A DNA stretch of 47,558 nt, taken from positions 1-47,558 of IMG/VR virus record IMGVR_UViG_3300025728_000015, one strand, 5' to 3'. The notes under the pieces were generated by a model, which saw nothing but the letters and a program-made list of their open reading frames with translations, was not told the DNA's origin and did not search any database. Both the position numbers and the translations under genes were made by a program. Positions 3,888 to 40,902 of this stretch are shown piece after piece (position 1 is the stretch's first letter; every line of letters starts with the position of its first letter). Origin of the DNA: a virus.

Positions 3888-4847
3888 ATGTTTCTCTCCA
3901 TAGGAACGGCAATGGCGCTGATACCTCTAGGGGTATGGGCATACAAGGATTTAACTATGAAGTATGAATGGTCTGAAGAGGAGAAACTTCCAAGTAAATC
4001 TCTCCGAGGATGGCACGTCCCAATAGGTGTCGACTCTCAGAGAAGGAAGTACTCTTTAGACTTCAACAAGACGCCTCACTTGGTTCTTGGAGGAGCTACC
4101 CGTTACGGGAAGTCAAATCTGCTCAACTCAATAGTCGTATCTCTTATGAGGTTGCGCCCTGAAGATGTCACATTCACGATGATTGACTTGAAAGGGGGAA
4201 TCGAGCTAGGTGACTACGAAGTAATGGAAAACTGTAGAGGTGTTGCCTATGAGCCACAAGATGCTCTGAGGTTGCTCTCATCCGTTTACTTGGAGATGCG
4301 TGACACTCAAGAGTATCTGAAACGTAAGAGGATGCGCAAGCAGTGGTGGAAGAAGCATTTCATAATCATTGACGAAGTCGGAGAGTTGAACCCTTCAGAG
4401 GAGACCTGTCGTGAAACGAAGAAGTTGAAGCAAGAGTGTCAATCTCTAATGAGTAAGATTTCACGCTTAGGCGCAGGACTTGGCTTCCATTTGATCCTTG
4501 CCACACAGTACCCCACTGGAGATGTGCTTCCGAGACAGTGTAAGCAGAATAGTGATGCCAAGATATGCTTCCGAGTACAGTCGGGGACAGCTTCAAAGGT
4601 TGTTCTCGATGAGGTGGGAGCTGAGGAGCTTCCAGACATCAGAGGTCGAGCTATCTTCCAAAGGGGAGCTGATCGCTACACAGTGCAGGTTTACCTTGTA
4701 GGTGAGACTGACATCGAGAACACTATAGAGAAGCACAGGAGGAAACCACATGAGCACATTGAACTTGAAACCATTGAACACGAGACACGAGAAGATTTTA
4801 CTCTCTTTGAAGAAACTCAGTTTTCTGACGAGGATACAACTTTCTAA
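3888..4847 (+). CDS. FtsK/SpoIIIE-like DNA translocase ATPase
   Basis: The protein has 319 residues. A hydrophobic N-terminal segment (residues 3-18) suggests a membrane anchor. Walker A is GGATRYGKSN (68-77), Walker B is FIIIDEVGEL (158-167), and LILATQYPTGDVLP (202-215) matches the FtsK sensor segment. It lacks the large linker and the gamma domain of chromosomal FtsK, and is closer in size to short plasmid or phage translocases. In such systems the enzyme pumps double-stranded DNA. Its last 98 bases overlap the replication-relaxation gene in another frame. The start has only an AAAGGA site upstream and is less certain than the domain. Confidence 0.85.
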   Translation: MFLSIGTAMALIPLGVWAYKDLTMKYEWSEEEKLPSKSLRGWHVPIGVDSQRRKYSLDFNKTPHLVLGGATRYGKSNLLNSIVVSLMRLRPEDVTFTMIDLKGGIELGDYEVMENCRGVAYEPQDALRLLSSVYLEMRDTQEYLKRKRMRKQWWKKHFIIIDEVGELNPSEETCRETKKLKQECQSLMSKISRLGAGLGFHLILATQYPTGDVLPRQCKQNSDAKICFRVQSGTASKVVLDEVGAEELPDIRGRAIFQRGADRYTVQVYLVGETDIENTIEKHRRKPHEHIELETIEHETREDFTLFEETQFSDEDTTF

Positions 4848-5337
4848 GATTCATAGCTTGGGAGGTAAGCGCAATACGAATAGAATACTTGAACGGCTAG
4901 AGCCATATCTTCATAGCTTCCGAGAAGGATACGATACAGTTTATTATTTGAATAAGATCGGAAGGGAATATGTTGACTCTAAGAAGGTTCTACGGAAGAA
5001 TCAATTCGTAAGTCATACTCTGATGAGGAACGAATGGTTTATCTTCAAAGGTAAGCCGTCCTATTGGCGCAATGAGATGAAAGTTGGAGGAGCCATCGTT
5101 TGTGATGCTGTATATAAGGAGTCTGGGAAGATGGTTATCTTGGAAGTTGACCTAACTCAGAAGATGTCCGTCAATAGGGAAAAGATTGCAACCTATAAGA
5201 AGGTGAGCTCTAAAGTTAAGGATTTCCCTTTGGTGATATTTCTAACTCATACGGAACATAGAAGGAAGCAATTGCAGAAAGCTTGCTCTGAGGCAGGGCT
5301 GACTGCTGAGGTTTACACTCTCGAGGATGTGCGCTAA
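4750..5337 (+). CDS. Replication-relaxation family protein
   Basis: The 195-residue protein opens with a winged-helix segment (about 8-50), followed by a central mixed alpha/beta region containing VILEVDLTQKMSVNREKIATYKK. That pattern resembles the replication-relaxation family found beside FtsK-like ATPases on plasmids and some Bacillus phages. AGGAGGAAACCAC precedes the ATG at 4750, inside the FtsK gene, so the two are coupled. A role in plasmid-like DNA handling or replication is inferred from family context. The terminator hairpin begins within its last codons. Confidence 0.75.
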   Translation: MSTLNLKPLNTRHEKILLSLKKLSFLTRIQLSKIHSLGGKRNTNRILERLEPYLHSFREGYDTVYYLNKIGREYVDSKKVLRKNQFVSHTLMRNEWFIFKGKPSYWRNEMKVGGAIVCDAVYKESGKMVILEVDLTQKMSVNREKIATYKKVSSKVKDFPLVIFLTHTEHRRKQLQKACSEAGLTAEVYTLEDVR

Positions 5338-8088: not shown

Positions 8089-8117
8089 TTGACAACAATT
8101 TAGGACATGTGTATAAT
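8089..8117 (+). promoter_or_regulatory. Perfect consensus SigA promoter
   Basis: TTGACA (8089-8094), 17 bases, TATAAT (8112-8117). It is followed at once by the inverted repeat GTTCTT-7 nt-AAGAAC (8118-8136), which could be an operator or a 5' RNA hairpin. It is the only fully consensus promoter noted and is expected to be strong from the start of infection unless repressed. Confidence 0.9.
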
Positions 8118-8159
8118 GTTCTTTAGAGAGAAGAACAACATTAGAGAAAACAAACAAGC

Positions 8160-8186
8160 TTGAAAGTTCGAACGTTAGTGAGAACA
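8160..8186 (+). repeat. Dispersed 26/27-nt element, copy 2
   Basis: Matches 3642-3667 apart from the short variable spacer. Here it lies about 43 bases downstream of the consensus promoter's -10 element, inside the presumed transcript leader. Confidence 0.55.
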
Positions 8187-8229
8187 AAAGACCTTGTACT
8201 TCATTACATTACGTACTATCAATTATATC

Positions 8230-8258
8230 TTGATTAAGCATATCCGTTGGTGTATAAT
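8230..8258 (+). promoter_or_regulatory. SigA-type promoter before terS
   Basis: TTGATT (8230-8235), 17 bases, TATAAT (8253-8258). A second TATAAT follows a few bases later. The terS start is about 35 bases downstream. Confidence 0.8.
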
Positions 8259-8294
8259 GTATAATATAAACTATTGAGATAAGGAGAGACGGAA

Positions 8295-8801
8295 ATGATA
8301 CACAATCACGAAGTAAAGAACGTAAAGTTTCCTGCTGATCCTCCTGAGTGGAACGGAATCAGCTTTAAGAACTTTAAAGAAAAGCATCGCATCCTCAACA
8401 GGGAGTTGATGGCTTCAGGAATGAACTATCGGAAGATTGCTTCTAAGTATGACTATCGACTGGACAGTTTGTACCGTATAGCTCGTATGCCCGCCTCTAG
8501 AGCATACCGAGACTGGCTAGGTGCTAGCGCTAGGGATACTCAGATTGCAGATGCTCACGAGGTTCTGAGGCACCTCACAGACATCTTAAGAGAGGATGCC
8601 TACGATGAGCATGTCACTCCAGCAGGAATGATTGTCACTAAGAAGACGGACACGAAGGATCGTTTGAAAGCGGCGGAGACTTTAGCTAAGGCGTTTGGCA
8701 TGTTTGAGAATAAAACTCAGGATACTTCAAACGTTATTGTTGTTGACATTGAAGGAGAAGACGAGGATGATGATATTTTAACTATAGAGAGTGGGGAATA
8801 A
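8295..8801 (+). CDS. terS: Terminase small subunit
   Basis: The 168-residue protein has an N-terminal helix-turn-helix-like region (about 30-65, NRELMASGMNYRKIASKYDY), a helical middle, and KDRLKAAETLAKAFGMF (about 119-135), a typical small-terminase segment, followed by an acidic tail. Small terminases recognise phage DNA and feed it to the large subunit. Position before terL supports this, although a structured intergenic RNA and two small genes lie between them. ATAAGGAGAG precedes the ATG. Confidence 0.8.
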   Translation: MIHNHEVKNVKFPADPPEWNGISFKNFKEKHRILNRELMASGMNYRKIASKYDYRLDSLYRIARMPASRAYRDWLGASARDTQIADAHEVLRHLTDILREDAYDEHVTPAGMIVTKKTDTKDRLKAAETLAKAFGMFENKTQDTSNVIVVDIEGEDEDDDILTIESGE

Positions 8802-9139: not shown

Positions 9140-9169
9140 TTGACAAGCTATATAGAAATATGCTATTAT
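9140..9169 (+). promoter_or_regulatory. Promoter of the terL-leader ncRNA
   Basis: TTGACA (9140-9145), 18 bases, TATTAT (9164-9169) with an extended -10 TG at 9161-9162. The -35 starts one base after the preceding stop codon. Transcription is expected near 9176. Confidence 0.85.
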
Positions 9170-9175
9170 GTTAGT

Positions 9176-9727
9176 AGTTGATAAAGAGAGGTAACTCATA
9201 AGAGGCTCTCTGTAAGACTCCTCCTCCTGAGGAATATCACAAGTGAAATGCGAAAGCTAGAAACTTGTGCTTTCCTTTGAAGGTTCTCTCAAAAGTTAAA
9301 CGCAGGGCTGATGAATCGTTACGAGCGAGCCGACACAATAGAAGCTAAGTAGAGAACCTTGAAAGGAAAGTATACGAGTGCTTTCTAAAGAGTCTTTTTA
9401 TAGTGCAAGACATAAGCTTCAGAGATTACGGCTCTGGAGCTTCCTCCTGCCCTGAGTTCAGGTCAACCTGTAATTATGAACCTTACAGCAGTGGTTCAAG
9501 TCCACGTTGGGGCATCCCTCCTTTTTGAAAACTAGAGAGGATTAAGACCTTTAGGTTTATGATACTCATTGCGAGTCACCAACCGAAGATAAGGCAACCT
9601 CCCTCCTAAAGAAATCCTCGAGACCTCCTCCGAGGCGCACCACCGATGCGCAAAAACTGGAACCTGTGAGATCACGCCTAAGTGCAAAGATAAGATGACT
9701 CTTCCTCTCTAGTTTTGAGAAAGGAGC
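9176..9727 (+). ncRNA. Large structured RNA, about 550 nt, upstream of terL (ROOL/GOLLD-like candidate)
   Basis: There is no convincing ORF, a strong promoter in front, and a series of stems: 9185-9190 with 9206-9211; 9238-9244 with 9263-9269; a 20-base stem 9270-9289 with 9351-9370 (19 of 20 pair); 9414-9424 with 9432-9442; a tRNA-like domain 9448-9514; and a 24-base stem 9518-9541 with 9703-9726. The last arm covers the ribosome-binding site of terL. Size, phage location and a tRNA-like part recall the GOLLD and ROOL giant RNAs. Membership is inference. It may be a leader of the terL mRNA or a separately processed RNA; no terminator is seen before terL. Confidence 0.7.
9448..9514 (+). other. 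tRNA-like domain inside the structured RNA
   Basis: TGCCCTG (9448-9454) pairs with TGGGGCA (9508-9514) as an acceptor-like stem. GTGG-TTCAAGT-CCAC (9491-9505) is a classic T arm with consensus loop. CTGTAA/TTACAG (9468-9473 with 9483-9488) forms an anticodon-like stem with a nine-base loop. The D arm is missing or merged with the CAGG/CCTG hairpin. At 67 nt it is probably not a working tRNA but a mimic or relic. Confidence 0.5.
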
Positions 9728-9733
9728 ATTTCT

Positions 9734-39651: not shown

Positions 39652-39681
39652 TTGACATCCTCCAGAGGGACATGCTAAGAT
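39652..39681 (+). promoter_or_regulatory. SigA-type promoter
   Basis: TTGACA (39652-39657), 18 bases, TAAGAT (39676-39681) with an extended -10 TG. The -35 follows the preceding stop codon directly. It drives the gene at 39705. Confidence 0.8.
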
Positions 39682-39704
39682 AGTCTCATAAGGAGGAGAT
39701 GACA

Positions 39705-40136
39705 ATGATTAAAACTAAAGAGTTAAAGAAAGACGGCTACCTTAAAGGTAATGCAAAGTATGAACAAATGAGTATCTATGACTTTATAGAAGAGTCCCAA
39801 GAGCTTCCGCCTTCCGAGACGGTTGCCCAAGTGGATGAAGCCCAAGATGATTGGAAGCTTAACGCTATCAATCAGCCAAGCAGTGCCCTAGATGCTAAAG
39901 AATCTACAGAGGATACTGACATGACTCTGTTCTCTGTAGGTGATGTTTTAACAGTTAGACAGGCTTCGGAAGTGTATTTATCTAATGAAAGCCCAGAAGA
40001 TTTTTACTTCCTCAAAGAATATGAGGGAGAGCAAGTTAAGATAATCGATATAGATGATAATGTTTTAAAGTGTAATACATTCAACCTTGATAAGGATATC
40101 TATCTAAGGAAGAATGAAGTTATAAAAATAAATTAG
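39705..40136 (+). CDS. Hypothetical acidic protein, 143 aa
   Basis: ATG 39705 is chosen over 39699 because AAGGAGG ends at about 39696. The N-terminus is basic, with a YEQMSIYDFIEE segment. A long acidic, probably disordered linker (about 30-75) leads to a beta-rich C-terminal domain (FSVGDVLTVRQASEVYL; QVKIIDIDDNVLKC) that looks like a small barrel. Function unknown. It precedes the second large ncRNA. Confidence 0.65.
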   Translation: MIKTKELKKDGYLKGNAKYEQMSIYDFIEESQELPPSETVAQVDEAQDDWKLNAINQPSSALDAKESTEDTDMTLFSVGDVLTVRQASEVYLSNESPEDFYFLKEYEGEQVKIIDIDDNVLKCNTFNLDKDIYLRKNEVIKIN

Positions 40137-40162
40137 TTGGATTTAATCATTAATTGTTTTCG

Positions 40163-40191
40163 TTGACACACAGGAAAGACTGTGATAGTAT
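40163..40191 (+). promoter_or_regulatory. Promoter of the second large ncRNA
   Basis: TTGACA (40163-40168), 17 bases, TAGTAT (40186-40191). The spacer contains a perfect inverted repeat CACAG-GAAAGA-CTGTG, which might be an operator. Transcription would start near 40198. Confidence 0.85.
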
Positions 40192-40197
40192 TGAATC

Positions 40198-40787
40198 ATA
40201 CCAGTGATACACAAGGTAATAAAATATTGAGGTGTATCGGACACCCTGAGAGAAGGGAAATAAACTTATAAGCCATGTAAGAGTGAGATCTACATAGGCA
40301 AATAAACATGAATGACTTCGAAAGAGTAAGACGGAAAGTTGCTTTTAAGAGTAACCTTGAACAGTTCCATTTACAGACATCTTAGGAGTTCGATAACTAA
40401 GCAGGCAACGACATGTTGCTACAAAGTATTCTACATCCTGATAACGTGTAGGATAGCTCACTTTTTGATTGACACTCTGGAAAGACAGAGCGCTCGTGAG
40501 GTGAGAGCGTACTTTCTGCAAGCCGACTTCTAACTAAGGTAGGTGAACAGGAAAGCCTTCTTTCAATCTAGTACACTACAGAGTAGAAACTGTTGTGTGC
40601 GACTCGGTGGAGACCTAAGACACCTCTTCCGTTTCAATACTGACTGGTAGGAAAGACTACTACAAGATTATATGTAAAGCTAGACTTGTGTGACGGGGAA
40701 GCTGAAGAGCGTACCTTGATAGACATATCTTGACCATAGTATTAGCTTAATCCCTTTGGAGGTGCAACTCTGGAGGGATATTTTTTT
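40198..40787 (+). ncRNA. Stand-alone large structured RNA, about 590 nt (ROOL-like candidate)
   Basis: It is bounded by a strong promoter and an intrinsic terminator and holds no convincing gene. Stems seen: 40206-40212 with 40232-40238 (alternative 40231-40235 with 40241-40245); 40272-40279 with 40291-40299; 40405-40409 with 40415-40419; 40475-40479 with 40486-40490; 40491-40495 with 40505-40509; 40551-40555 with 40560-40564; 40646-40650 with 40657-40661. Length and phage location fit the ROOL class, which forms RNA oligomers. Class membership is inference and needs a covariance search. It lies in the rightward early operon, so it is probably made early. Confidence 0.75.
40750..40787 (+). 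terminator. Intrinsic terminator of the second large ncRNA
   Basis: ATCCCTTTGGAG (40750-40761) pairs with CTCTGGAGGGAT (40768-40779), twelve pairs with wobbles, then ATTTTTTT. It gives the RNA a defined 3' end. Confidence 0.9.
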
Positions 40788-40812
40788 GTTTAAAATAATT
40801 TACATAAAAATG

Positions 40813-40841
40813 TTGCATTATCTTTTTAGTCATGATATATT
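40813..40841 (+). promoter_or_regulatory. SigA-type promoter
   Basis: TTGCAT (40813-40818), 17 bases, TATATT (40836-40841). It restarts transcription after the ncRNA terminator and drives the genes from 40903 onward. Confidence 0.7.
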
Positions 40842-40902
40842 TAAGTCAACAAAGAAACACAAGAACCTAAGCTAATTTACAATTTAAGAGGAGGAAAATA
40901 AA

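Follow-up and report, generated by a model that had tools for sequence, protein, structure and literature searches.

A candidate family of large, modular structured RNAs carried by two unrelated groups of phages

Few large structured RNAs of phages are known, and most of them have no settled function. ROOL and GOLLD, two large phage RNAs whose function is unknown, form cages, and tRNA islands near ROOL are common, although not obligatory (PMC12286853). Other points of comparison are the structured pRNA of the phi29-type phages (Salasmaviridae) and PE1-T of Ceduovirus phages, a non-coding transcript that lies near replication genes and comes in varying types (PMC7150918). The stretch of DNA analyzed here (referred to as the window) is a virus record of 47.6 kb (47,558 nt), whose primase and helicase share only ∼40 to 45% identity with their counterparts in Enterococcus phages (Saphexavirus) and whose more distant relatives are phages of Listeria, Paenibacillus, Carnobacterium, and Bacillus. 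The original prediction, made from the letters of the window, was that positions 40198 to 40787 encode a stand-alone structured RNA of ∼590 nt, with its own promoter and terminator, that matches the ROOL class in size and phage context but could also represent a new family.

The RNA resembles ROOL (RF03087) in being phage encoded, ∼600 nt long, rich in helices, equipped with conserved loops, and of unknown function, and it resembles GOLLD in its large size, its occurrence in phages, and its mix of conserved and variable parts. Assignment to the ROOL class was nevertheless not borne out: the ROOL covariance model had no match at an E value of ≤10 in seven phage records (a search without a positive control, since 14 control genomes also gave no match), and the window has no tRNA genes. 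From GOLLD, the RNA differs in its smaller size, the lack of a tRNA island, and the lack of a GOLLD match up to an E value of 10. The Rfam comparison proposed with the prediction, run up to an E value of 10 on the window and on stretches from two relatives (L002 and L095), returned no ROOL, GOLLD, OLE, or HEARO; in the window, none of the 4,227 Rfam families matched at its gathering score, and the relaxed scan gave a chance match on the opposite strand. Matches to PCA3_2, NsiR1, and His_leader were below the cutoffs and were rejected because they look like chance or terminator-like hits. A group I or II intron was likewise rejected, given the absence of an Rfam match and the presence of a terminator at the end of the RNA. 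In contrast to the pRNA, the window RNA matches no Rfam pRNA model, and unlike PE1-T, its family spans phages with two unrelated modes of replication and has a fold with covariation at the RNA level. ROOL and GOLLD are nearest in kind to the window RNA, which, judged by these searches, is a member of neither and represents a family absent from Rfam.

Extent and structure of the RNA

As predicted, the stretch is free of genes, with no credible open reading frame (ORF) from 40137 to 40902, between the stop of a 145-amino-acid (aa) ORF (40136) and the start of a 200-aa ORF (40903). Homologues were identified in IMG/VR through the primase, which is 77% identical in L002 and 72% in L095, and in both the RNA lies in the same place; four more (L177, L178, L179, and L185) were added by pattern searches with conserved parts of the RNA, giving, with the window, seven long members, which are few and related to one another and are drawn from collections that may miss near relatives. 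Conservation among these homologues begins at about 40155 and sets the limits of the RNA at 40155 to 40787 on the + strand, from the conserved UGUUUUCG through the T-run of the terminator, so that its length is ∼633 nt and not ∼590 nt. Four further pattern matches (L181 to L184) were rejected as chance on inspection of their sequences, and a pattern search of genome contigs gave nothing at first and then two chance matches. BLASTN with the window or L179 RNA found no match in phages and plasmids, nor did L206 RNA (see below) in plasmids.

The many internal complementary arms of the prediction correspond to many helices. The + strand of 40198 to 40787 folds better than shuffled sequences (z = −3.75, with 0 of 100 shuffles equal), versus z = −1.30 for the − strand, and the difference persists when the terminator is excluded (window RNA, z = −2.86 versus −0.92). 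The + strand fold was also better than the − strand fold in 6 of 6 homologues. In some members, the signal from folding energy alone is weak, and the L178 RNA by itself (z = −0.98) is barely beyond its shuffles. Translations compared among the homologues revealed no shared reading frame and no codon-like conservation of the kind that the prediction had set against covariation.

The most conspicuous part of the RNA is a recurring motif, UUGAC or UGAC followed by a stem of 4 to 6 bp with an invariant GAAAGA loop, that is present in three copies per RNA. In the window, the first copy (P1; UUGACA followed by CACAG-GAAAGA-CUGUG) lies at 40163 to 40185, the second at 40469 to 40491, and the third, together with CAAUACUGAC, at 40635 to 40662, all on the + strand like the other parts (E values with the hairpin model R2 of 2.9e-6, 4.7e-6, and 2.4e-5, respectively). 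Between the first two copies lie hairpin P2 (40206 to 40238; GAUACAC/GUGUAUC with an inner GGUA/UAUU helix), module M1 (40272 to 40299), which is a hairpin with a conserved UGUAAGAGUGAG found in four of the seven long members, the core module (40326 to 40374), and UAACUAAGCAG followed by a hairpin with the loop GACAN (40394 to 40420). The core module consists of a two-part helix, the hairpin GUUGCUU-UUAA-GAGUAAC, and a nine-nucleotide strand, CUUGAAC(C/A)G. Hairpin F, with the loop NGUAGRAA, lies at 40571 to 40600 and module M2 at 40690 to 40746, and the RNA ends in the predicted intrinsic terminator (40750 to 40787), a 12-pair stem (40750 to 40779) that covaries between members and is followed by seven T residues. 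The RNA would be read from the + strand and would stop at this terminator.

Compensatory changes were found among the seven long members in every helix tested, in the case of P2 from two sequences only (4 of 11 pairs changed on both sides). For the GAAAGA hairpin, 94.5% of the alignment cells are paired and four of five pairs are changed on both sides, with a covariation score of 1.047 versus 0.188 ± 0.071 in shuffles and at most 0.205 in slid controls, although this alignment pools copies within and between RNAs, and its rows are therefore not independent. The core module (92.9% paired; 9 of 16 pairs changed on both sides) scored 0.583 versus 0.236 in shuffles. Hairpin F, which has an internal loop in three close members, was paired in 72.7% of cells with 7 of 11 pairs changed on both sides; the GACAN hairpin also covaries, with 100% of cells paired, and the terminator alignment was paired in 96.7% of cells. 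Because the alignments were trimmed manually to the helices, they are biased toward structure, a bias that is offset in part by the slid controls and by the independent matches in Salasmaviridae described below; two alignments in which rows were misplaced were left out of account. At one pair, U-G is invariant in 10 of 10 members, and such conserved pairs favor an RNA of the + strand over a DNA cruciform.

The composition of the RNA varies between members. Module M2 is common to the window and L178 alone (local alignment score of 52, versus at most 32 in 300 shuffles), and with respect to the CAAUACUGAC hairpin, it is on one side in the window and on the other in L178. In L095, ∼200 nt are inserted on the 5′ side, and this insert is similar to repeat units that precede the RNA in L205, L206, and L207. 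Between members, modules of the RNA have been gained, lost, and relocated, which suits an accessory function. Repeats of the form UCAAGGAAAAGA..UAAAACCCGU..ACGUUAA were observed in the L095 insert (5057 to 5262), at the upstream sites in L205, L206, and L207, and at 4737 to 5040 of L208.

The transcription unit and the upstream gene

The predicted promoter sequence, TTGACA-17-TAGTAT, is present at 40163 to 40191, but a promoter used throughout the family is doubtful there: promoter-like matches in the region are not in excess (16 versus 12.9 ± 3.6 in shuffles), the TTGACA is within the conserved P1 hairpin, and a hexamer 17 nt downstream of it is seen in two of the seven long members, namely, the window (TAGTAT) and L002 (TAGAAT), whereas L095, L177, L178, L179, and L185 have no −10 hexamer at that spacing. 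The Salasmaviridae members have TATAAT or TAAAAT at 18 nt. Pairing in the hairpin that occupies the would-be promoter spacer is retained by every member, so the hairpin is likely to be transcribed; we concluded from this conservation that the RNA would start upstream of 40163, and an additional promoter at 40163 may have arisen in some lineages. TGTTTTCGTTGACA was considered as a general promoter of the window phage and rejected, since other near matches to it in the window are at chance level.

In each of the seven long members, the RNA is directly preceded by the gene for the 145-aa protein (39699 to 40136 in the window, + strand); the neighborhoods of L177, L178, L179, and L185 were taken from longer stretches (L189, L186, L187, and L188, respectively). 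The RNA lies mostly within ∼40 nt of the stop codon of this gene, except in L095, where the insert intervenes, and the gene still precedes the RNA where helicase identity falls to ∼57%. A promoter-like site, TTGACA-18-TAAGAT with TG before the −10 element, is found upstream of the gene at 39652 to 39681 (+ strand), with similar sites in L002, L095, and L177, and another such site precedes the next operon at 40813 to 40841 (+ strand), with similar sites in L002 and L095. Because there is a promoter before the 145-aa gene and a separate one for the next operon, the transcription unit in the window's group is probably the 145-aa gene with the RNA as its 3′ part. The description of the RNA as stand-alone is thus doubtful, given the same upstream gene in seven of seven long members, but its own terminator stands. 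We also observed a CCUCC-containing leader (39652 to 39700), conserved in relatives, that faces the AGGAGG ribosome site of the 145-aa gene and may control its translation.

In a structure model from the seven-sequence alignment, the 145-aa protein has a C-terminal barrel (pLDDT of 80 to 90) and is otherwise disordered. Foldseek gave no match below an E value of 0.001; VIA-align aligned the barrel with KOW domains of DSIF, Spt5, and NusG (Z of 8 to 9; root mean square deviation of 1.1 to 1.6 over 51 to 57 residues), in a list that also includes other SH3-like barrels. The predicted KOW/SH3-like barrel would be a common fold that does not by itself show a function. No homologue of the protein was found in the phage collection, and there was no clear PHROGs match.

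Occurrence in Salasmaviridae

A scan of viral sequences with the 5′ motif identified four further loci, L204 to L207, in genomes of 26 to 27 kb. Over the stretch, L205 shares 98.6% identity with Bacillus phage KonjoTrouble, a Claudivirus of the family Salasmaviridae (phi29-like) that infects B. thuringiensis, carries a short version of the RNA of an expected 300 to 400 nt, and has no annotation under it. The 5′ end, UUUUCGUUGACA with the GAAAGA hairpin, is present in all seven long members and in L204 to L207, the 5′ motif of KonjoTrouble being TTGGCA. A covariance model of the core hairpin, UAACUAAGCAG, and the GACA(N) hairpin (R1), which was built from the seven long members only and matches these by construction, independently found L204 (E value of 4e-10), L205 (2e-8), and L206 (5e-8); L207 had no R1 match, and although its 5′ and 3′ motifs are present, the core as modeled is not. 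The R2 hairpin was found in five of five Salasmaviridae loci, with two copies in L204 and in L207, and the core hairpin covaried again once the Salasmaviridae members were added. Thus, covarying homologues, which the prediction had proposed to seek, were found both in related phages and in Bacillus phages of the KonjoTrouble group, supporting a large structured noncoding phage RNA and perhaps a new family. Among related Enterococcus, Listeria, Bacillus, Paenibacillus, and Carnobacterium phages and the primase relatives, R1 recovered only known members. No obvious T-run terminator was seen by eye in the Salasmaviridae members.

By sequence and model matches, the same RNA is present in two unrelated phage groups. 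The window's group encodes a DnaB-like helicase, a primase, and a polymerase of a different type from that of Salasmaviridae, while KonjoTrouble-type phages have a terminal protein and their own polymerase; because the two groups, as annotated, replicate by different proteins, common replication machinery cannot explain the RNA. No relative of the 145-aa gene was found among the genes neighboring the RNA in KonjoTrouble, which weakens the idea of the 145-aa protein as an obligatory partner of the RNA. Term searches of literature on KonjoTrouble's phage group (PMC6266182 among it) brought up the pRNA as the only noncoding RNA under discussion. Given strand-specific folding, covariation in several helices without coding constraint, and the sharing of the RNA by phage groups that are not related to each other, we regard it as near certain that the stretch in the window is a structured RNA.

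Candidate functions

The RNA probably does a real job during infection. By analogy, it would be a big, modular, self-contained fold like ROOL and GOLLD, and the repetition of one hairpin with an invariant loop suggests that the GAAAGA hairpin is a docking site. Since the two phage groups differ in their replication proteins as annotated, the evidence speaks against a function tied to a single phage machine and for one aimed at the host; that two unrelated families of phages carry the RNA limits its function to a shared need, most likely one that comes from the host. Our best reading, for which we consider the chances even, is a new family of large, modular, trans-acting phage RNAs that are scaffolds or decoys with GAAAGA docking hairpins. 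The RNA would be freed from the 145-aa transcript by processing, or separately started in some lineages, and would act in trans early in infection, its repeated UUGAC and GAAAGA-loop hairpins docking a host protein or each other. For the mechanism taken alone, a trans-acting scaffold or decoy for a host factor, our confidence falls somewhat short of even. A more specific form, which we put forward tentatively, is a new class of host-directed RNA that is swapped between unrelated phage families, has interchangeable modules, and uses its GAAAGA-loop hairpins, possibly as a multimer, to disarm or redirect a host system, for which a defense system, a ribonuclease, or transcription could be candidates. 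KonjoTrouble on B. thuringiensis, with its short version of the RNA, offers a workable laboratory model. Kissing of the GAAAGA loop with a UCUUUC stretch was considered by eye and not adopted; the complement is present in five of the seven long members and lost in L095.

The strongest alternative, although an unlikely one, is that the RNA acts in cis as the 3′ region of the 145-aa mRNA, stabilizing the message or governing whether transcription continues past the terminator and into the replication operon, in one variant as an antiterminator, the KOW-like protein then playing the part of a NusG-like protein. The invariable 145-aa gene upstream of the long members, the promoter before it, the predicted KOW-like barrel, and the position of the terminator as the last element all fit such control, but the RNA of KonjoTrouble stands without this gene, in three members the next operon is served by a promoter of its own, and a modular fold of 600 nt far exceeds what such control needs. 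Somewhat less probable is a multimeric, RNA-only particle like the ROOL and GOLLD cages. Size, phage context, and several invariant loops are compatible with it, as are palindromes seen by eye in some terminator loops (UGCA and UGAUCA, and a UAUA loop in L002 and L095); yet there is no family relation to ROOL, and the palindromes are not universal.

We consider it improbable that the RNA is an origin transcript forming an R-loop primer, as proposed by likeness to PE1-T (PMC7150918). The RNA does lie among replication genes in both groups, near those for an SSB-like protein and primase in the long members and for SSB in Salasmaviridae, and the GC skew changes sign near 38 kb, where gene orientation changes too. 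However, according to a report on the relative Goe4 (PMC6266182), replication in Salasmaviridae is primed by terminal protein at the genome ends, and this unrelated machinery makes a role tied to one replication origin less likely; the covariation and conserved G-U pairs, moreover, point to the RNA fold itself. That the stretch is a spacer folding by chance, as the weak fold energy of some members might suggest, is hardly credible in view of covariation tested with controls and model recognition across phage families.

Three other gene-free stretches were observed. In an Enterococcus phage, EH93P1 (L093), the stretch from 8093 to 8765 before the primase gene has no Rfam match, adjoins a gene for an I-HmuI-like endonuclease, and folds on the + strand with z = −3.07 versus −0.98 on the − strand. 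In the window, a stretch of 694 nt (2105 to 2798) has CUAUAG-type repeats, fragments conserved in L002, and a weak + strand fold (z = −2.05). The window stretch from 9140 to 9733, before the gene for the terminase large subunit, folds strongly on both strands (z = −4.6 and −4.1), has long inverted repeats, contains a tRNA-like stretch (∼9447 to 9514) not called by ARAGORN, and shares conserved blocks with L002 and parts with two other relatives; it is possibly a second structured leader RNA.
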